DNA of 45,012 bases. Origin: an uncultured Verrucomicrobia subdivision 3 bacterium (lineage in GTDB: Bacteria; Verrucomicrobiota; Verrucomicrobiia; Limisphaerales; UBA11358). Every line of letters begins with the position of its first letter. Positions within the stretch are counted from its first letter, which is position 1. Positions 4,150 through 25,285 of this stretch are shown here, piece after piece. Location: positions 1 through 45,012 of the forward strand of contig CAISEZ010000148.1 of NCBI GenBank assembly GCA_903884535.1, written 5' to 3'. Position numbers and translations under genes: made by a program. The notes beneath the pieces are model-generated. The model ran no database searches and was not told the DNA's origin. It worked only from the letters and a program-made list of their open reading frames with translations.

Positions 4150-4243
4150 AGTTTTTAATTTTGAATTCTAAATTTTTAGTTCAAAAGACAAACGCGGGCG
4201 CGAATTCCTTCAACTTAAAACTAAAAATTCAAAATTAAAAACT
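4150..4243. repeat. Seven-base-period inverted-arm element (AT-rich type)
   Basis: The left arm is five exact heptads from 4150 to 4184: AGTTTTT, AATTTTG, AATTCTA, AATTTTT, AGTTCAA. The right arm is five heptads from 4209 to 4243: TTCAACT, TAAAACT, AAAAATT, CAAAATT, AAAAACT. The arms are inverted relative to each other (A-R-T-T-N-N-N against N-N-N-A-A-Y-T) and separated by 24 bases that include GC-rich CGCGGGCGCG. The last heptad contains the stop codon of the upstream gene. It has the same design as the elements at 11398, 19162, 21150 and 23201. Confidence 0.75.
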
Positions 4244-16703: not shown

Positions 16704-17888
16704 TCATTTCGCCCAAGCAGGCTGGGAATTACTTCCGTTCGCTCGAACACAATCCTTGTATTGTTTGGTGAAGACGTCAAGCACAGATAACACTTGACGA
16801 TGCCCGATTTCATGGTTGAAAACCAGCGTCCGCGAGTTCGGCGCCCACGACGGATTCTGCCCTGCCACCAAGACCGCCGGCGCCAGACTGCCGTCCACCG
16901 GCATCACACAGATGTCGAAATCGCCCGCCTGCCGCGTGAACGCGATCCACTTGCCGTCCGGCGACCAGTCCGGCTCCGTCGGGTTCGCCGCGCCGGCGGT
17001 GTTCAGCGTTTTGATCGGCCCGCCGCTCGCGGAAACTTTGGCGAGACGCCGGCGCTCGGCGATTTTCGTGGCGAAACAAATCCATTGTCCGTCCGGCGAC
17101 CAGCACGGCGACGAATCTTCCAGCCCGGTGGTCAGGCGTTTCAAATTCGTGCCGTCCGCGTTGCAGACCCAGACGTTCGGGCTGCCGCTCTTGCTCAAAA
17201 TCATCGCCACCTTCGAACCGTCCGGCGACACCGCCGCGCTCGTGTTCAAGCCGGAATAACCGGCGATCACGCGCCGCTGGCCGCTCGACAGGCTGTGGTA
17301 AAAAATATCCGGATTGCCGCGCGCGTAGCTGGTGTAATAAACCGCCAGCTTGCCCGGCACCCACGCCGGCTTGGCCACAATCGTATTATCCGTCGTCACG
17401 GCCTGCGCGTTGTGCGCGTCAAAATCCGCGACGTAGATTTCGCCGCTGCCGCCGGCCGACTGCGCCTTGAACGCGATCTTCGTCTGGCCGATGCCGGGCT
17501 TGTTTAAAATCGTCTGCACGATGTCATCCGCAAACGCGTGCGCCTGCCGCCGCATGCTCGCGCCGTTGTAGCTGCGCGACAGCACGACCTTCTTGGCAAA
17601 TTTATCCGTGACGCGGCCGGTCACGTCGCCCGCGCTGCTGCCGCTAATCTGGTATTGCGCGGCATCCGGCGCGACGAAGCTGAAGCCTTGAACGTAAAGG
17701 TCAAATTTCAAAACCTCCGCCGCTTCGCCGGTGAAACCGTCGAGCGAAACCGGAATGGGTTTCGTCTGGCCGAGCACATTGATCTGCTCATTCATCGAAA
17801 GCGAATTTTGGCTCTGCGCAAAAAGAGGCGTGGCTGTAATTATTAAACTTGTAAGAAATAAGTTAGTCATTTTTGGGAATATGTTCAT
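16704..17888 (-). CDS. tolB: Tol-Pal system beta-propeller protein TolB
   Basis: Periplasmic protein that binds Pal and links it to the inner-membrane Tol complex. In 394 residues: signal peptide (MTNLFLTSLIITATPLFAQ after a short lead), the N-terminal alpha/beta domain with a Y-Q-I-S-G-S motif (about 80-85), and a six-blade propeller with repeated SPDG-x-W/K motifs (AVSPDGSKVAMI, SPDGQWICFATK, SPDGKWIAFTRQ). The start overlaps tolA by four bases (ATGA); the later Met7 would also give a good signal peptide. Confidence 0.93.
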   Translation of the reverse strand: MNIFPKMTNLFLTSLIITATPLFAQSQNSLSMNEQINVLGQTKPIPVSLDGFTGEAAEVLKFDLYVQGFSFVAPDAAQYQISGSSAGDVTGRVTDKFAKKVVLSRSYNGASMRRQAHAFADDIVQTILNKPGIGQTKIAFKAQSAGGSGEIYVADFDAHNAQAVTTDNTIVAKPAWVPGKLAVYYTSYARGNPDIFYHSLSSGQRRVIAGYSGLNTSAAVSPDGSKVAMILSKSGSPNVWVCNADGTNLKRLTTGLEDSSPCWSPDGQWICFATKIAERRRLAKVSASGGPIKTLNTAGAANPTEPDWSPDGKWIAFTRQAGDFDICVMPVDGSLAPAVLVAGQNPSWAPNSRTLVFNHEIGHRQVLSVLDVFTKQYKDCVRANGSNSQPAWAK

Positions 17889-18745
17889 AACATGCTGGTT
17901 CTGGTGGCGTTAAAATCAATATTGTAAGTGCGCTGACGGTCTTTCGAATCGTCGGGAAATTCACCAATAAAGCTGACGCGATCAAGCATGCGCTGAACCG
18001 CGTTGTCCACGCTGGCGTCACCCGAAGAATTCACGATATGCGATGAAATCACGTTCCCATCTCTGGAAATCGTAACGGAAAATCTAATCACAGCTTCGGC
18101 GGAGGCCATGTTATCCGGCGGCATCCAAGCGTGATGATAAACGCTGACAACTGCCGCTCCATAATTTGCGTAAGCCGCACTGCTGTTGCCGGGCATATTA
18201 ATTTCTGTTGCCGTCGAGGAGCTTTCCTTGATTGAAGAAAGTGCTTTTCTAAACGCTCTTGCTTGTTGATCGCGCAACCATTTTTGCTCCTTGGCGTCCG
18301 CCTCCGCGTCGCTGTTGTCCGTGTTTTTCACCACTTTGTGGACCACTTTTTTTAGATCCACTTCGATTTTGTGCGGCTTTGGCTTGGTCGGCTTTTCCAC
18401 CGGCATCGAATCATCCGGCGGCGACTTGACCGGTTCGGGTGTGAAAATTTCTTTCACTTTTTCCACGAAGGTCGGCGGCGTGACCGGCAGTTTTGGCGGC
18501 TCCGGCGTTGGCGGCGGTGTGACGATTGGTTTTGGCGTCGGCGGCGCGGGCGGTGCCGGCTGCGCGTTTTTGACGCCGCTGTTGAACGCCGCGTCAATCA
18601 GGTTGGCCGGAATCACATCCAAAACTTGCGTGTCATCGGGCTTCGGTTTCGCCGCGAAGAAACCGGGGCCGACCAGCAAAATCACCACCAGCAGCAGGTG
18701 CATGCCCGCCGTGACGATGAGACATTTTTTTTGCAGCCGGTTCAT
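17885..18745 (-). CDS. tolA: TolA/TonB-like energy transducer
   Basis: Connects the TolQR motor to outer-membrane partners. The 286-residue protein has one membrane helix near the N-terminus (MHLLLVVILLVGPGFFA, about 15-31), a Pro-rich spacer with repeated PAPPAPP and TPPPTPEPPK, a charged helical stretch (AEADAKEQKWLRDQQARAF), and a C-terminal TonB/TolA domain with VIRFSVTISRDGNVISSHIVNSSGDASVD. Its place between tolR and tolB decides TolA over TonB. It overlaps tolR and tolB by four bases each. Shorter than E. coli TolA (421 aa), mainly in the helical domain. Confidence 0.88.
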   Translation of the reverse strand: MNRLQKKCLIVTAGMHLLLVVILLVGPGFFAAKPKPDDTQVLDVIPANLIDAAFNSGVKNAQPAPPAPPTPKPIVTPPPTPEPPKLPVTPPTFVEKVKEIFTPEPVKSPPDDSMPVEKPTKPKPHKIEVDLKKVVHKVVKNTDNSDAEADAKEQKWLRDQQARAFRKALSSIKESSSTATEINMPGNSSAAYANYGAAVVSVYHHAWMPPDNMASAEAVIRFSVTISRDGNVISSHIVNSSGDASVDNAVQRMLDRVSFIGEFPDDSKDRQRTYNIDFNATRTSML

Positions 18746-19158
18746 CGGGTCGTCGGATCGGTGCGCAGCGAATACCGCGTGATGCCGTTTTTCTGGCAGC
18801 CATCAATGATCTGCGCCACCAAATCGTAACGGCACTCCTTGTCCGCGCGGATATAGACGACGGTGTTTTGATTCGCGCGAAATTCCTGCGCGAGCTGCGT
18901 GATGAGTTTCGTCAGGCTCATCTTTTGTTTGTCGAGCGCGTAAATCCCGGTGTTGGAAATCTCCACGGTGCGGATGTCAGATTTATCCAGTTTCTTCTCG
19001 GTCTGCCCGCCGTGCGGTAATTTCAAATCAATGCTCTTTTCCAGCAGCGGCGTGGTGATGACGAAGATGATGAGCAGCACGAACGCAAGGTCGAGCAGCG
19101 GCGTGATGTTGATGTCACTCAACGTCACCAGCGAATTGCGTTGTGAAAACCGTCTCAC
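18742..19158 (-). CDS. tolR: ExbD/TolR family proton-channel subunit
   Basis: A 138-residue ExbD/TolR protein. It has the family start SDINITPLLDLAFVLLIIFVITTPLL (residues 14-39) with the channel aspartate in PLLDLAFVLL, followed by a periplasmic domain ending in YIRADKECRYDLVAQIIDGC. It forms the motor with TolQ. The start is GTG at 19158, overlapping the stop of the four-helix-bundle gene (GTGA). That inserted gene now separates tolR from tolQ, so tolR translation probably depends on coupling to the inserted gene. Confidence 0.93.
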   Translation of the reverse strand: MRRFSQRNSLVTLSDINITPLLDLAFVLLIIFVITTPLLEKSIDLKLPHGGQTEKKLDKSDIRTVEISNTGIYALDKQKMSLTKLITQLAQEFRANQNTVVYIRADKECRYDLVAQIIDGCQKNGITRYSLRTDPTTR

Positions 19159-19598
19159 GTTGGTTGCAAGTTGCTGGTTGAAGGTTGCAAGTTGGCCACC
19201 GCGCGCCCCGGTTTTTTCATGCGTGAATTTGGCGCGTAACCCTCCAGATAGCGGATGAAGGTGGAAAGTTTTTTGGACAGCGACACGGACAAATCACGCA
19301 GGGAATTGAATTCGGTTTCACCAAGATATTTTTGGTCCACGGCGACGCAAAGCTGCGAGCGCACTTCGCCGTTTGAACCCTTGGCGATGTTTAGAAACTG
19401 CACAAATTCTTTCCGCGTGCCGCGCTCAAATCCCTCGGCGATGTTGGACATCGTCGAAACCGCCGCACGGCGAATCTGATCGCGCAAACCAAAGTCCTGA
19501 TTGAAGACCCGCGCTTTTGAAGCAGAATACACAGCATTCACCATCTGCCGGGCGTCCTGCCAGACATGCAAATCTTCAAATTGTTTTACCGTGGCCAT
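19155..19598 (-). CDS. Four-helix-bundle protein (23S rRNA IVS-type), inserted between tolQ and tolR
   Basis: A 147-residue protein of the S23/IVS family (TIGR02436-like): FEDLHVWQDARQMVNAVY at the start, FGLRDQIRRAAVSTMSNIAEGFERGT (the family hallmark), FLNIAKGSNGEVRSQL, and a final helix KKLSTFIRYLEGY. Relatives occur in rRNA intervening sequences, and the accessory Avd proteins of diversity-generating retroelements share the fold; no molecular role is shown here. The last residues (NLQPSTSNLQPT) are coded by heptad repeats. Such arms flank the gene on both sides (19162-19196, 19605-19632). The stop overlaps the tolR GTG, so expression is tied to the tol operon. It interrupts an otherwise compact tolQ-tolR pair. 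Confidence 0.9.
   Translation of the reverse strand: MATVKQFEDLHVWQDARQMVNAVYSASKARVFNQDFGLRDQIRRAAVSTMSNIAEGFERGTRKEFVQFLNIAKGSNGEVRSQLCVAVDQKYLGETEFNSLRDLSVSLSKKLSTFIRYLEGYAPNSRMKKPGRAVANLQPSTSNLQPT
19162..19196. repeat. Heptad arm at the 3' end of the four-helix-bundle gene
   Basis: Five exact heptads on the plus strand: GGTTGCA, AGTTGCT, GGTTGAA, GGTTGCA, AGTTGGC. They code the last residues of the four-helix-bundle protein in the opposite strand and end four bases before the tolR start. They are inverted relative to the arm at 19605-19632. Confidence 0.8.
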
Positions 19599-19604
19599 TT
19601 TTTG

Positions 19605-19632
19605 AACCTGCAACTTTCAACCTGTAACCTGC
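19605..19632. repeat. Heptad arm between tolQ and the four-helix-bundle gene
   Basis: Four exact heptads: AACCTGC, AACTTTC, AACCTGT, AACCTGC. Their reverse complement is GCAGGTT-type, the same unit as the 19162 arm and as the elements inside the two TPR genes. The arm fills the gap from six bases after the tolQ stop to six bases before the inserted gene's ATG, so that gene's leader is made of repeat. Confidence 0.8.
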
Positions 19633-19638
19633 AACGAT

Positions 19639-20364
19639 TTATTCCTCCGCGAGAAATTCCGTTTCCATTTTCGACACCAGCTCCTGCGCGAAATTGTCCA
19701 GCTCGACGGTGAATGCGCGCAGATTGTGCACGAGCCAGTTGTAGCCGAACATCGACGGGATCGCCACGAGCAGACCGGCGACGGTCGTTATCAGCGCGGC
19801 GGAAACGCCCGGCGCCATCGCGGCCATCGTGGCCGAGCCTTGCTGCGCGATGCCGGCGAACGTGCTCATCACGCCCCACACCGTGCCCAGCAATCCCATG
19901 AACGGCGCGCCGCTGACCGCGATGGCCAGCAGAATCAAGCCGGATTCCAGTTTGAGCGATTCTTTGGCAACGACGTTTTCGATGGCGCGTTTGATGTGCT
20001 CCATGTTTTTTAGACTGATGTGCTGCTTGGCGCGTTCACCGGTCGGCCCGCGCAGGCGCGCATCGAGTTGCACGCAGCCCGCCTGATAAACCACGTAGAG
20101 CGGGCAGCCCTGCACGTCAATCTTGCGGTCAAACAATTCGAGCACGACTTTTTGCGACGTGAATTCCTGGCCGAACAGCGAATTCAATTTCCGCGCGCGG
20201 CGCATCTGGATGGCTTTGGACATCATCACAAACCACGCCGCGATGGAAAAGACAAAGAGCAGCGCGATGATGGCTTTGGCTTCCACCGTCGCTCTGTCCC
20301 AAATGTAAATGAGTTCGGCTTGATTCGTCGCCGCTCCCATGAGAGTAAAAGGTAACCCGCTCAT
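19639..20364 (-). CDS. tolQ: MotA/TolQ/ExbB family proton-channel protein
   Basis: A 241-residue inner-membrane motor subunit. Helix 1 is about residues 33-52 (ALLFVFSIAAWFVMMSKAIQ); helices 2 and 3 are in the conserved LILLAIAVSGAPFMGLLGTVWGVMSTFAGI and ALITTVAGLLVAIPSMFGYNW, with the G-x-x-GT-V-x-G signature. It precedes tolR, tolA, tolB and pal, which fixes TolQ over ExbB. It is the first gene of the operon. The four-helix-bundle gene and its repeat arms follow its stop. Confidence 0.93.
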   Translation of the reverse strand: MSGLPFTLMGAATNQAELIYIWDRATVEAKAIIALLFVFSIAAWFVMMSKAIQMRRARKLNSLFGQEFTSQKVVLELFDRKIDVQGCPLYVVYQAGCVQLDARLRGPTGERAKQHISLKNMEHIKRAIENVVAKESLKLESGLILLAIAVSGAPFMGLLGTVWGVMSTFAGIAQQGSATMAAMAPGVSAALITTVAGLLVAIPSMFGYNWLVHNLRAFTVELDNFAQELVSKMETEFLAEE

Positions 20365-20535
20365 AAATATAAAAAACTTGGTGGTGAGGAACCGATTTTA
20401 GGCCAAGTAACGGCTTCCGAGCATTCGTCCGTCGGCCGGAATTATCAGCGGAAGCGAAGGAAATTGCAAAAACTTTTTGCAGCAAAGATGAATCGCCCTT
20501 TGCCCCGCCGGCAAAATCGCTTACAAATCTCGGCG

Positions 20536-22545
20536 ATGTCACGTCCGCGCCTCATCGCCCTGCTGCTCGCGCTCGCCACGCTGGTGGTCTTTGTGCCCGT
20601 TGGTTCACATTCATTTGTGAGCTACGACGACACGGATTACGTGACCGAAAATCCGTTTGTCAAAAACGGGCTGACCTCGACCGACCTCGGCTGGGCGTTT
20701 ACCACGTTTCACGCCGGCAATTGGCATCCGGTCACGTGGATCTCGCACATGCTCGACTGCCAGCTGTTCGGCCCGAACGCCGGCGCGCAGCATTTTGTCA
20801 GCGTCCTCTGGCACGCGGCGAATGCGGCGCTGCTGTTCGCGCTTTTGCTCCGGCTGACCCAAAAAATCTGGCCCAGCGCATTCGTCGCCGCGTTGTTCGC
20901 CTGGCATCCGCTGCATGTGGAATCCGTGGCTTGGATCGCCGAACGCAAGGATGTGCTGAGCACGTTTTTTGCGCTGCTCACATTTTTATGCTACGCGAAA
21001 TTTGCCGAGGCAGTTCGTGTCAAAAGCCCAAAGGCCAAAGTGTTTTTCGCGTGGAGCTTGTTGGCCTTTGCGCTCGGCCTGATGGCCAAGCCGATGCTCG
21101 TCACGCTACCGTTTGTTTTGCTGCTGCTTGATTTTTGGCCGCTGAATCGGGTTGCAAGTTGCAGGTTGCAGGTTGCAGGTTCCGCGAAAAGCAACTTGCA
21201 ACCTTCAACTTGCAACCTTCAACTCCGGGAAAAATGGCCGTTTTTTTTGCTGGCCGCAATTTCCTGCGTCGTCACGTTTCTCGCGCAGCGACAGGGCGAA
21301 GCCATCGCCTCGCTGGCAAGCGTGCCGCTGCTTTACCGCCTGGAAAACACGCCGGTCGCCGCGGCGGAATATCTGCTGAAATTTTTCTGGCCGGTGGACC
21401 TCTGCGCGATTTATCCGATGCATCCGATTCCCGTTTGGCAGGTGGCCGCGTCCGTCGCGGCGCTGCTGGCGATTTCTGTTGCCGCATGGCGTGGGCGCGC
21501 GACCAAACCGTATTTGATCGTCGGCTGGCTGTGGTTTCTCGGCACGCTGGTGCCGGTCATCGGCCTGGTGCAAGTCGGCGGACAGGCCCTCGCCGACCGC
21601 TACACTTATATTCCGTCCATCGGATTTTTCATCGCCGCCGTTTTTCTGCTCAACGATTTTTCCGCGCGGCTGCAGCCGCCGAAAATGGTCGCCGCCGGTT
21701 TTGCCGCCGTGATGTTGACCGGCTGCATTCTGGCGACGGAAAATCAACTGACGTTTTGGCGCGACAGTGAAACTCTTTTCCGCCGCGCCGTCGCCGTGAC
21801 GCAAAACAACGACATCGCGCTGGTGAATCTCGGTGTTGCACTGGACGTGCAAAACCGGTTTGACGAGGCGCTGGAAGTTTATCGGCAGGCGGAAAAATTG
21901 AAATCCACGCGGCCCCAACTGCACAACAATCTCGGCAACATTCTCGACAAACTCGGCCGCCACGACGAATCGCTCGCCGAATACCGCGAGGCGATCCGGT
22001 TGCGGCCCGGCGACGCGGTTTTGCATGATTCTGCCGGCAGCGAACTCGCCGCGCTCGGCCAGTTTGACGCGGCGATGAAAGAATTTGCCGAGGCCGAACA
22101 GCTCGATCCGCATGATGCCCAGCCGCACGCGGAGATAGCCAAGGCGTTTTTCCTGCAAGGCCGCGATGCCGAGGCGGTGGCGGAATTGCACACCGCAGTG
22201 CAAATGGAGCCGGACAATTTTCAGATCCTGGCCACCGCCGCGCATTTTCTCGCCGCGAATGAAAATGCCGCCGCGCGCGATGGACAGGCGGCGCTCACCC
22301 TGGCCGCCAAGGCCAACGTGCTGACCGGTGGCCATCAGCCGCGGGTGTTTGACGTGCTCGGCATGGCGTGCGCCGAGACCGGCGATTTCGCCAACGCGGC
22401 GGCTTGCGCCGAAAACGCGCTCCTGCTTGCCATCCATGCGCGTTTGCCCCTGACCAATCAAATGGCGCAGCGGCTGGAGCTTTACAAAATTCACCAGCCC
22501 TGGCGCGAAACGTTCCGCGCCACGAATGCGCCGGCGAAAAATTAA
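20536..22545 (+). CDS. Multi-pass GT-C-like membrane protein with TPR repeats (copy 1)
   Basis: A 669-residue protein, the first of two tandem paralogues. The N-terminal two thirds is a polytopic region like eukaryotic TMTC/bacterial GT-C O-glycosyltransferases: an early SYDDTDYVTENP loop with the Asp pair typical of GT-C enzymes, GNWHPVTWISHMLD, and FAWHPLHVESVAWIAERKDVLST. From about residue 415 come at least five TPR units (LVNLGVALDVQNRFDEALE, HNNLGNILDKLGRHDESLAEYREAI). Probably glycosylates or handles envelope proteins or polymers; the substrate is unknown. A heptad element at 21150-21225 is translated in frame (RVASCRLQVAG, NLQPSTCNLQL), and a decayed one at 21019-21039. The inner ATG 20536 gives the shared MSRPRL start. 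Confidence 0.8.
   Translation: MSRPRLIALLLALATLVVFVPVGSHSFVSYDDTDYVTENPFVKNGLTSTDLGWAFTTFHAGNWHPVTWISHMLDCQLFGPNAGAQHFVSVLWHAANAALLFALLLRLTQKIWPSAFVAALFAWHPLHVESVAWIAERKDVLSTFFALLTFLCYAKFAEAVRVKSPKAKVFFAWSLLAFALGLMAKPMLVTLPFVLLLLDFWPLNRVASCRLQVAGSAKSNLQPSTCNLQLREKWPFFLLAAISCVVTFLAQRQGEAIASLASVPLLYRLENTPVAAAEYLLKFFWPVDLCAIYPMHPIPVWQVAASVAALLAISVAAWRGRATKPYLIVGWLWFLGTLVPVIGLVQVGGQALADRYTYIPSIGFFIAAVFLLNDFSARLQPPKMVAAGFAAVMLTGCILATENQLTFWRDSETLFRRAVAVTQNNDIALVNLGVALDVQNRFDEALEVYRQAEKLKSTRPQLHNNLGNILDKLGRHDESLAEYREAIRLRPGDAVLHDSAGSELAALGQFDAAMKEFAEAEQLDPHDAQPHAEIAKAFFLQGRDAEAVAELHTAVQMEPDNFQILATAAHFLAANENAAARDGQAALTLAAKANVLTGGHQPRVFDVLGMACAETGDFANAAACAENALLLAIHARLPLTNQMAQRLELYKIHQPWRETFRATNAPAKN
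21150..21225. repeat. In-frame heptad inverted-arm element inside TPR gene 1
   Basis: Left arm: GGTTGCA, AGTTGCA, GGTTGCA, GGTTGCA (21150-21177). Spacer with TTCCGCG. Right arm: GCAACTT, GCAACCT, TCAACTT, GCAACCT, TCAACTC (21191-21225). The arms could form a long hairpin. It stays open in the reading frame and comes directly after the residues LDFWPLNR, between two membrane segments. Confidence 0.85.
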
Positions 22546-22586
22546 ATCCGCTTTGCCCGGCCCGCAAAATCGCTTAAAAGAAACGC

Positions 22587-24614
22587 ATGTCGCGCCCGCG
22601 CCTGCTCGCCTTGTTGCTTGCCTTGATCACGTTCGCCGCCTTTCTGCCGGCGACGCGCTTCGCGTTCATCAACTACGACGACAACGATTATGTGACCGCC
22701 AATCCGCCAGTGCAGGCGGGGCTTTCGTGGAGCGGCGTGAAATGGGCATTCACCACCCGGCACGCGAACAACTGGCATCCGCTCACCTGGCTTTCGCACA
22801 TGGCCGACTGCACGCTGTTCGGGCTGAATCCCGGCGGGCATCATCTGGTGAACGTGCTGTTTCACACGGCGAACACGGTGCTGCTGTTCGTGCTGGTGCT
22901 GCGGCTGACGGGTGCGCTGTGGCCGGCGGTGTTCGTGGCCGCGCTGTTCGGCTGGCATCCACTGCACGTGGAATCCGTCGCGTGGATTGCGGAGCGCAAG
23001 GATGTGTTGAGCACATTTTTTGCGCTGCTCACGCTGTTGAGCTATGCAAAATATGTCGAGGCGTCCAAAGTCCAAAGTCCAAAGTCCAAAGTTTTTTTTG
23101 CGGGCAGTCTGCTGGCTTTCGCGCTCGGCTTGCTGGCCAAGCCGATGCTCGTCACGCTGCCGTTCGTGCTACTGTTGCTGGATTATTGGCCGCTGAATCG
23201 GGTTGCAGGTTGCAGGTTGCAGGTTGCAAGTTGCGCCACGCCGAACCTTCAACCTTCAACCTTCAACCTTCAACTTTTAACCGAGAAATGGCCATTCTTC
23301 CTGCTCACCGCGCTTTCCTGCGCGCTCACTTTTCTGGCGCAATCGCAAGTGGTGCACGGCAGTTCGGCGGTGATGTCGCTCGGCGTCGTTCCGCTGCACT
23401 ACCGGTTGAAAAATGTTCCGGTGGCTTACGCCGAATATTTATCGAAGCTGGCGTGGCCGGCCAAACTCGCGGTGTTTTATCCGCTCGCCGACATCATCCC
23501 GCCGGTTCGCGTCGCCGTGGCCGTAGCGCTGCTGCTTCTGATTTCTGCGGTGGTTGTGCGCTGGTGGCGGACGCGGCCGTATCTGCCCGTCGGCTGGTTG
23601 TGGTTTCTGGGCACGCTTGTGCCGGTCATCGGCCTGGTGCAAGTCGGCGGCGCGGCGCTGGCCGACCGTTACAGCTACCTGCCGTCTATCGGCATTTTCC
23701 TCATCGTCGCTTTTGCCGCACGTGATGCGCTTCAGCGCTTTCCGTCGGCAATAAAATTTTTCGCCGCCGCCGGAATTTTAATTCTAGCCGGCAGCCTGTG
23801 CGCCATGGAAAAACAACTCGCCGGCTGGCAAAGCAGTGAGACGCTGTTCCGGCACGCGCTCGCCGTGACCACGGACAACGATGTCGCCCGCACCGATCTG
23901 GCCATTGCGTTGCAAGACCAGGGCCGCTGGCCGGCGGCGCTCACGAATTTTCAAGCCGCCGTCCGGCTCGCGCCCGAACGCCCCATGCTGCACAACAATC
24001 TGGGCAATCTTCTCGACCGGCTCGGCCGCCACGCCGAGGCGCTTGCCGAATACCGCGAAGCCGTCCGCCGGCTGCCCGGCGAAGCCGCAGGTCACCTCGG
24101 CGCGGGCAATGAACTCATCGCGCTGGGAAAAACGGACGACGCGCTGACGGAATTTTCCGCCGCCGTCCGATTGGACGCCACGCTCGCCGCGCCGCACGCC
24201 GGCATCGCGAAAATATTTTTCCTGCAAGGTCGCGACGCCGAGGCCGTGGAACAACTCCGCGCCGCGCTGAACCTTGAGCCGGACAATCTGCAAATCCTCG
24301 CCGCCGCCGCACATTATCTCGCCGCGAATGAAAATGTCGCCGCACGCGACGGCCGGTTGGCGCTCGCGCTCGCCGCCAAGGCGAACGCGCTGGCCGGCGG
24401 GAACCAGCCGCTTTATTTCGACGTGCTCGGCATGGCGCTGGCCGAGACCGGCGATTTCACCAATGCGCAAACCTGCGCCCAAAACGCGCTCATTCTAGCC
24501 AATGCCGCGCAGATGAAAAACACCGGTGAAATCCAGCAACGGCTGGAGCTTTACAAAAATCGCCAGCCGTGGCGGGAATCGTTCCGTGCTCCGAACGCGC
24601 CGGCGAAAAATTAA
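22587..24614 (+). CDS. Multi-pass GT-C-like membrane protein with TPR repeats (copy 2)
   Basis: A 675-residue paralogue of the upstream gene, homologous from MSRPRLLALLLALI to the shared ending RLELYK--QPWRESFRAPNAPAKN. It has the same NYDDNDYVTANP loop, NNWHPLTWLSHMAD, FGWHPLHVESVAWIAERKDVLST, about ten membrane helices and a C-terminal TPR array (RPMLHNNLGNLLDRLGRHAEALAEYREAV). The duplication includes about 40 bases of upstream DNA (CTTTGCCC...GCAAAATCGCTTA before both starts). Heptad elements are translated at 23063-23090 (SKVQSPKSKV) and 23201-23278. Its end overlaps the convergent bioD by four bases. The same function as copy 1 with another substrate is plausible. Confidence 0.8.
   Translation: MSRPRLLALLLALITFAAFLPATRFAFINYDDNDYVTANPPVQAGLSWSGVKWAFTTRHANNWHPLTWLSHMADCTLFGLNPGGHHLVNVLFHTANTVLLFVLVLRLTGALWPAVFVAALFGWHPLHVESVAWIAERKDVLSTFFALLTLLSYAKYVEASKVQSPKSKVFFAGSLLAFALGLLAKPMLVTLPFVLLLLDYWPLNRVAGCRLQVASCATPNLQPSTFNLQLLTEKWPFFLLTALSCALTFLAQSQVVHGSSAVMSLGVVPLHYRLKNVPVAYAEYLSKLAWPAKLAVFYPLADIIPPVRVAVAVALLLLISAVVVRWWRTRPYLPVGWLWFLGTLVPVIGLVQVGGAALADRYSYLPSIGIFLIVAFAARDALQRFPSAIKFFAAAGILILAGSLCAMEKQLAGWQSSETLFRHALAVTTDNDVARTDLAIALQDQGRWPAALTNFQAAVRLAPERPMLHNNLGNLLDRLGRHAEALAEYREAVRRLPGEAAGHLGAGNELIALGKTDDALTEFSAAVRLDATLAAPHAGIAKIFFLQGRDAEAVEQLRAALNLEPDNLQILAAAAHYLAANENVAARDGRLALALAAKANALAGGNQPLYFDVLGMALAETGDFTNAQTCAQNALILANAAQMKNTGEIQQRLELYKNRQPWRESFRAPNAPAKN
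23063..23090. repeat. GTCCAAA heptad array inside TPR gene 2
   Basis: Four exact tandem copies of GTCCAAA, followed by a run of T. It encodes KVQSPKSKV in the TPR protein. The matching place in copy 1 (21019-21039) has the decayed heptads GTCAAAA, GCCCAAA, GGCCAAA. The same unit in the other strand sense (TTTGGAC) is in the element before murJ. Confidence 0.8.
23201..23278. repeat. In-frame heptad inverted-arm element inside TPR gene 2
   Basis: Left arm: GGTTGCA four times, AGTTGCG (23201-23235). Spacer CCACGCCG. Right arm: AACCTTC four times, AACTTTT (23244-23278). It sits at the same codon position as the element in copy 1, directly after LDYWPLNR, and is translated in frame. Confidence 0.85.
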
Positions 24615-25285
24615 ATTGCGACCAGCGCGGCGAGCGCTTTACGCACGCGCGGATTCTTCAAAACGGTCGCTGGTTCGAAATTTTTGCCAAGCCACGGCAG
24701 CGTAAAAATGTTCTCCACCAGAAAAAATTGGGCCAGCAGTTTTTCGTTGGTCGCCGTCGCCGCGTCCGGTTTCGGCGGCGACATCAAAACCACTTTGGCC
24801 CGGGCGCGCAGATTTTTCGGCAGGGCTGCAAGCGTCAGCAGCAGGTGATTCGCCGCGCCCAGCTTGTTGGCCGCGACGATGATTGGTGTGGCGCGCAATG
24901 CCACGATCAAATCACGCGAATCAAAATCCTCGCCGAGCGGACTCAGCAGGCCGCCCGCGCCTTCGACCAGCAATACGTCGGATTTTTTCCGCGTCGCACG
25001 GATGTGCGCCACGACGTGCGCCAGCCGCACCGATTTCTTTTCCAATTGCGCAGCGAGCGCTGGCGCAATGGCGGCGCGGAAAGGCCACGGATTAATTTCA
25101 TCCAGCGTGAGCGTGCCGTTCATCGCCGCAAAAATGATCCGCGCGTCGTTGCGGCCGCCGGAGCAAATGGGTTTCAGCGCCGTCGCGTGGATGCCGTGCG
25201 CCCGCAAAAACCGCGTAAGCAGCGCGGTCAAAACCGTTTTGCCGACGCCGGTGTCCGTGCCGGTGATGAAAAGCGTTTGCGCCAT
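24611..25285 (-). CDS. bioD: ATP-dependent dethiobiotin synthetase
   Basis: Closes the ureido ring of dethiobiotin from DAPA, CO2 and ATP. The 224-residue protein has the P-loop ITGTDTGVGKT (residues 7-17), ALKPICSG with the substrate Lys, and VEGAGGLLSPLGED (Mg/ATP site), then IIVAANKLGAANHLLLTL. Length is normal for BioD. It is alone here, without bioA, bioF or bioB. Its stop overlaps the end of the convergent TPR gene. Confidence 0.95.
   Translation of the reverse strand: MAQTLFITGTDTGVGKTVLTALLTRFLRAHGIHATALKPICSGGRNDARIIFAAMNGTLTLDEINPWPFRAAIAPALAAQLEKKSVRLAHVVAHIRATRKKSDVLLVEGAGGLLSPLGEDFDSRDLIVALRATPIIVAANKLGAANHLLLTLAALPKNLRARAKVVLMSPPKPDAATATNEKLLAQFFLVENIFTLPWLGKNFEPATVLKNPRVRKALAALVAI

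Follow-up and report, generated by a model that had tools for sequence, protein, structure and literature searches.

PF05635 four-helix-bundle genes stand as a unit between matching inverted arms of heptad repeats, with empty sites in relatives, a preferred placement at operon junctions and, in three of four heptad families, enrichment of cognate arrays in the genomes that carry them. We propose that the copy between tolQ and tolR in the 45,012-nt stretch of DNA analysed here (the window) belongs to a widespread class of small elements that are, or once were, mobile, and to this explanation in full we give a probability of about 0.57. Each unit would be a PF05635 gene between inverted tandem-heptad arms, mostly AG(T/G)NNNN when read from the outside in; gene and arms would travel jointly and would mostly insert directly behind an operon gene's stop codon, near the next start, so that the neighbours would be left intact by placement between stop and start. 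Gene-less hairpins of like heptad would be dispersed dependants or remnants. What could so small a protein contribute? We infer that it acts on heptad hairpins and takes part in copying or moving them: it would recognise them, probably in DNA form, and would copy or insert them jointly with a nuclease or polymerase of the host, and the 7-nt step would reflect the spacing of the protein on the repeat. The pattern suggests a little-noticed class of tiny mobile elements across many kinds of bacteria, mostly with different repeat letters.

The element between tolQ and tolR

17885..18745, minus strand: TonB/TolA-like gene, after the tolR-like gene in minus-strand order (ORF list, profile matches)
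18742..19158, minus strand: tolR-like gene, downstream neighbour (profile matches)
19155..19598, minus strand: four-helix-bundle gene (23S_rRNA_IVP / S23p family), 147 aa (profile matches)
19163..19193, plus strand: 3' heptad arm, inverted copy, 31 nt; encodes the C-terminus and stops just short of tolR
19605..19635, minus strand: 5' heptad arm, GTTGCAG GTTACAG GTTGAAA GTTGCAG GTT, 31 nt; starts 3 nt past the tolQ stop
19639..20364, minus strand: tolQ-like gene, upstream neighbour (profile matches)
21150..21223, plus strand: gene-less heptad hairpin, in frame within the TPR gene 20464-22545
23202..23281, plus strand: gene-less heptad hairpin, in frame within the TPR gene 22587-24614, a related protein carrying it at the corresponding position
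4150..4243, no strand assigned: other period-7 hairpin, AT-rich unit, autocorrelation 0.64, 35-nt arms, 24-nt loop

The gene at 19155-19598 (-) is a four-helix-bundle protein of PF05635/TIGR02436, with profile scores of 118 bits to PF05635 (E 2.5e-34) and 113 bits to TIGR02436, and it lies wedged between tolQ and tolR as the initial annotation had described. The minus-strand order is tolQ-like, four-helix-bundle gene, tolR-like and TonB/TolA-like, the best NCBIfam matches of the two immediate neighbours being tolQ and tolR, both below the equivalog cut-offs. PF05635 is the only profile match of the flanked gene, with no match to a Y1 tyrosine transposase; solved relatives of its protein are 2gsc and 2rld, and we know of no activity for the family. 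An anti-phage defence gene was rejected as a candidate because no family in the PADLOC models matched, and Rfam gave no match at 18700-24700 of the window.

Inverted heptad arms flank the gene and gene-less versions occur within both TPR genes, and here, too, the initial annotation holds. It had also noted that the last residues are encoded by the arm and that the stop overlaps the tolR start: the C-terminus, ending in NLQPSTSNLQPT, indeed lies within the right arm, and the TGA of the four-helix gene overlaps the tolR GTG as GTGA. Only the leader repeat was misplaced, at six bases past the tolQ stop instead of 3 nt. The two gene-less hairpins share the heptad of the gene's arms, and both reading frames run through them; 14-mers resembling GTTGCAGGTTGCAG (up to 3 mismatches) number 22 in the window, where 100 shuffles average 5.45 and reach at most 13. 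These hairpins occupy matching places in two related TPR membrane proteins, so that the repeat either predates their duplication or marks a target spot. A further strong hairpin, at 2156-2287 of the window, has weak periodicity at 9.

We read the tolQ-tolR junction in 30 genomes, one junction each, out of 36 searched in the genus. Twenty are empty (at most 19 nt between the genes, one pair overlapping), four contain the four-helix gene, and six contain gene-less inverted-repeat hairpins in gaps of 88-121 nt, four of these with a period of about 11 (by eye), one with period 8 and one a heptad. Because the junctions differ in this way, the four-helix gene at tolQ-tolR is an insertion, as the idea of a cassette inserted in an operon had anticipated; all four gene copies have heptad arms, where a gene present there across a wide clade without heptads would have spoken against that idea. 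Hairpins of differing type at one short junction point to several events. On a tolQ+tolR tree, presence of the gene takes at least 4 changes and presence of any insert at least 8, scattered over the tree, and a filled and an empty genome adjoin at support 98/90. For the gene itself, one old insertion with repeated loss would fit as well as repeated gain, because the three other junction copies are 74-87% identical to the window's, their tolQ 81-84%, and the closest protein outside the junction, within the analysed set, is 54% identical.

The gene-less junction hairpins in L052, L055, L058 and L066 are inverted hairpins of CACAGATAAA-like units with the period of about 11 and form a second hairpin-repeat type. 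At two filled sites, L045 and L294, the start codon of the downstream gene is GTG in place of the ATG of empty relatives; at the other filled tolQ-tolR sites, L057, L064 and L069, it is still ATG.

As judged from substitution rates, the PF05635 protein is under purifying selection: dN/dS is 0.06-0.09 among three of the four tolQ-tolR gene copies and 0.05-0.13 in 13 of 15 selected PF05635 pairs, the other two being saturated and dS being high in several.

Arms and placement of PF05635 genes across bacteria

The window's genome has seven PF05635 matches, one below the cut-off. The arms found there are GTTGAGA-like on C138 (a 33-nt perfect inverted repeat), GTTCAGG on C100, GTTGCAG on C148 and TCCAAAG on C72, with two others on C77; the weak match on C150 is without arms. 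This last protein (G000:C150:11771-11986, L015), longer and weakly matching, may belong to another subfamily. The family is present in at least 33 of 36 genus genomes and at least 66 of 96 phylum genomes, and the best 80 of at least 588 loci in a sample of named genomes carry titles from many bacterial phyla and two archaea.

For a broader view we assembled 226 PF05635-like ORFs, each with no less than 150 nt of flanking sequence (7 from the window's own genome, 65 from the genus, 73 from the phylum and 81 from named genomes). They were kept from 237 ORF matches after removal of 8 with short flanks and 3 duplicates, matches below 25 bits having been excluded earlier, and a few share a locus or may be fragments of one gene (e.g. 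two in L130). Inverted arms (score of at least 14) flank 167 of the 226, and 7 of 1101 displaced windows taken from these loci reach that score; the other 59 ORFs have no arms at this threshold. For named genomes (77 of 80 loci, three being out for short flanks) the counts are 58 of 77 against 0 of 388 displaced, and mismatched upstream and downstream pairs give 2.6%. An armless subfamily was considered and rejected because armed genes form no cluster on the protein tree (49 changes, against a shuffled mean of 51.9 and minimum of 42).

The best period among the 167 armed elements is 7 in 134, 8 in 21 and 9 in one, with none in 11, and arm autocorrelation averages 0.69 at lag 7 and at most 0.33 at the other lags from 5 to 12. 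Heptads bordering other four-helix-bundle genes, which the initial annotation had predicted, are thus found as period-7 arms at 134 of the 226 ORFs. After phase fitting, the first two unit positions are A (0.79) and G (0.90), followed by T (0.45) or G (0.28), the remaining four being freer; random 30-mers fitted in the same way yield no AG anchor. The arm-unit reading took in 59 of 65 loci, six without the motif being left out, and comparisons of unit similarity between element pairs include some units whose phase was wrongly chosen. The heptad is thus not limited to the GGTTGCA type: the AG and the period are shared, and the letters vary, with 114 distinct heptad units among the 134 period-7 elements. 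The two arms of one element agree at 88% over their aligned part, a selected quantity, and matching heptad by heptad exceeds the permuted mean in 80 of 94 elements (29 of 94 at p <=0.05), a partly circular result as the arm limits were set by alignment. On the protein tree, period 7 versus 8 takes 14 changes, compared with a shuffled mean of 20.0 and a minimum of 17 in 300 shuffles; the period would thus pass down in part along with the protein, as expected if the protein sets the step.

The left arm starts at a median of 3.5 nt past the upstream stop, and within 15 nt in 76 of 124 cases, as located by a crude ORF finder whose right-side figures, inflated by frames already open at the slice edge, were set aside. 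A frame of at least 300 nt ends near the left arm edge in 121 of the 167 elements, against 45 of 693 random positions, and the right arm edge lies near the start codon of a 300-nt frame (-20 to +25 nt) in 118 of 167, a figure without a control. TAG is the upstream stop in 43 of the 121 and in 78 of 555 ORFs used as controls (odds ratio 3.4, p 2e-7), which suggests that the first AG of the element often completes the upstream stop codon. Placement after stop codons, and likewise purifying selection on the protein, would also suit a host regulatory hairpin, that is, a selected, non-selfish intercistronic element whose protein would bind the arms and so repress its own operon. We regard this as very improbable, given that two thirds of the tolQ-tolR junctions (20 of 30) have no insert of any kind and that family matches range from 0 to 14 per genome within one genus, among the matches listed.

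Could the element instead act at the level of RNA? As an mRNA counterpart of rRNA intervening sequences, its arms would pair in the transcript, RNase III would cut the stem, and the gene would be excised from the operon message. The arms of the window gene do pair in a predicted RNA fold of 521 nt (the z of -3.06 is that of all 521 nt), both neighbours share the element's direction in 104 of 154 cases by the crude ORF finder, and rRNA intervening sequences hold the same gene family, the one in Coxiella having complementary sequences at its borders and being a substrate of RNase III, as passages of PMC4990558 describe. Arm mismatches, however, comprise 141 G-U against 198 A-C (per element, 37 against 66 with 64 ties), which is the opposite of what selection for pairing in the transcript would leave. 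With A-C rather than G-U in excess, selection for RNA stem pairing is therefore unsupported and a DNA form more likely; an RNA-level element would also leave copies at new sites and dispersed cognate arrays unexplained, and we consider it unlikely. On the gene strand, the excess of A-C over G-U mismatches across the 167 arm pairs looks as if pairing counted on the other strand.

Gene and arms also occur jointly at a further site. In G075, a 602-bp element (L294:5947-6548) lies between two genes, and at the corresponding site L293 of G135, which has the same genus code, the junction reads TGA-C-ATG and the element is absent. The L294 protein and the L117 protein of G135 share 92% identity, their arms share an AGAACGG unit, and their flanks score low (24 and 10); G075 also has a counterpart of L117, L118, 2.3 kb away. 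With two genomes compared, the difference between L294 and L293 would fit either acquisition by G075 or loss from G135. Close proteins with like units also occupy other differing sites, L224/L082 and L240/L243 (after rotation), and some proteins about 72% identical have different units (L213/L119). By eye, no target-site duplication was visible at L294/L293 or at tolQ-tolR, where the flanks have diverged.

Dispersed arrays of cognate heptads

Arrays of a given heptad are enriched in genomes that have a PF05635 gene so armed in three of four heptad families, with imperfect specificity. Triple heptad arrays were counted per genome in the 36 genus genomes at up to 2 mismatches, and genomes with a fetched PF05635 gene bearing the heptad beside it were tested for high rank in these counts, the cognate gene sets being defined by the search pattern itself applied to 73 gene loci, which come from 28 of the genomes. 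The counts include overlapping matches and the gene's own arms (14 of 32 in G030), the statistics ignore relatedness, and a backward control pattern gives matches for GTTGMAR and AGTCCAA. For GTTGMAR, the six gene-bearing genomes rank 1, 2, 3, 5, 13 and 15 (mean 47.8 versus 9.3; p 0.0005); for AGTCCRC, four genomes take ranks 1-4 (19.0 versus 0.3; p 0.00001); for AGTKAYG, four rank 1, 3, 6 and 9 (27.2 versus 4.3; p 0.0012); and for AGTCCAA a single genome ranks 3 (p 0.083). The p values for GTTGMAR, AGTCCRC, AGTKAYG and AGTCCAA are 0.004, 0.00006, 0.007 and 0.048 at 4 mismatches, and 3.4e-5, 1.7e-5, 0.0016 and 0.057 with hand-picked gene sets (without G022 and G023, and without G012 for AGTKAYG).

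Among 12 cross-family tests at 2 mismatches the lowest p values are 0.049 and 0.053, with the other ten from 0.08 to 1; at 4 mismatches four of the 12 give p < 0.03, in part because AGTCCAA resembles AGTCCRC. G022 and G023 have a GTTGMAR-armed gene yet only 12 and 11 arrays, and G018 has 47 GTTGMAR arrays and G035 35 AGTKAYG arrays with no gene so armed among those fetched. Random stretches gave 3 period-7 hairpins in 800 kb of family-bearing genomes (all in G001) versus 0 in 800 kb of genomes without the family, too few for comparison. The flanks of the pooled loci, 953 kb in all, yielded 47 passing hairpins, and the 15 that are strongly periodic (>=0.7) all have period 7, two of them (L253 and L104) probably being one stretch. 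L301 and L343 have period-8 hairpins with CGCTAA-containing units, one of them in a genome without PF05635 matches.

The enrichment is compatible with either direction of cause between gene and arrays. In one alternative the protein is a passenger: heptad hairpins would be made and spread by other means, such as slippage or a Y1 transposase acting in trans, and PF05635 genes would ride in their loops and adopt the local heptad. The window's genome has one Y1_Tnp gene, the only one found (G000:C130:15075-15416), which leaves room for mobilisation in trans. Gene-less hairpins occur, two of them within the window's TPR genes, and 20 fetched array sites comprise 9 inverted hairpins of the queried unit, 3 sites with only another heptad inverted repeat and 8 without any inverted partner. 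Against a passenger stand the recurrence of one protein family in such arms across many phyla, the purifying selection on that protein and the partial tracking of its tree by the period, and we hold this reading to be improbable, if somewhat less so than excision from RNA. The mobile element that we favour retains the initial suggestion that the protein is the mobile partner of the heptads insofar as gene and arms occur together at unrelated sites and cognate arrays are enriched; the active part in mobility would be the protein's putative role.

Comparison with known systems

PF05635 is named after rRNA intervening sequences, yet the sampled genes lie mostly in heptad hairpins between or beside protein genes. 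Short rRNA intervening sequences are not known to carry the ORF; those with an S23p ORF share the protein family with the window element, whose inverted arms recall the complementary sequences that border such inserts in passages of PMC4990558. The same passages describe a family member from Xanthomonas as a homopentamer, and parts of PMC11270868 place the family in CPR bacteria as well, within inserts of their 16S and 23S genes. Unlike these, the window element lies between the protein genes tolQ and tolR, outside 16S and 23S genes, and its kind has heptad-array arms whose letters differ per element, plus dispersed cognate arrays. An rRNA habitat was rejected for L001-L292 by a coarse test, three rRNA strings being absent from those loci. 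The family also resembles Avd of diversity-generating retroelements, and homology is suggested in the relevant part of PMC10053308; a retroelement with a local reverse transcriptase was rejected because the window's genome (93.6% complete) has no PF00078 match.

Rickettsia palindromic elements sit in frame within protein genes. Compared by description, these elements, which a passage of PMC2635572 names, are palindromic inserts in protein genes like the TPR hairpins, and differ from them in that the hairpins here are heptad arrays. A CRISPR survey lists the 23S rRNA IVP in a figure legend (PMC10910872, from that legend), and our search of the open-access literature found no paper that ties PF05635 to heptad arms.

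Heptad arrays themselves have been described separately in other bacteria. In the Nostoc trnL intron, heptad repeats build the P6b stem, with a Class II unit of NNTGAGT and a Class I unit of TDNGATT (PMC4476775, in part), and sections of PMC4679880 describe TAACTGA heptamers of Beggiatoaceae; a term search of the latter text found no four-helix-bundle or intervening-sequence gene named. AGTNNNN accommodates both Class II, in the reading AGTNNTG, and TAACTGA, which gives AGTTATC when reversed; Class I does not fit AG. More tentatively, PF05635 proteins might define near-universal minimal mobile elements, each a small protein, without known active site, plus two arms re-created in concert; the arm letters would be nearly free while the AG anchor and a 7-nt, sometimes 8-nt, step set by the protein are kept. 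The rRNA intervening sequences, Nostoc intron heptads and TAACTGA arrays would then be habitats, and insertion would target junctions between a stop and a start, with the AG of an upstream TAG often coming from the element. We think this extension possible and rather less probable than its narrower form, which may itself unite the separately described arrays. How would such an element keep its 7-nt step and matching arms while the letters change?

A close precedent is the REP/RAYT system, or REPtron, in which flanking inverted repeats, co-evolution and the abundance of cognate repeats tie RAYTs to REPs, as set out in parts of PMC2817692. Here, similarly, the gene lies between inverted repeats, at the 167 armed ORFs, and cognate repeats are abundant where the gene is present, in the three heptad families at 2 mismatches, with the same imperfect specificity. 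The differences are that PF05635 is no Y1 tyrosine transposase and that its repeats are tandem heptads. An unrelated protein would thus share, in part, the three marks of RAYTs, and PF05635, a family of unknown function, would gain a place in a mobile element.
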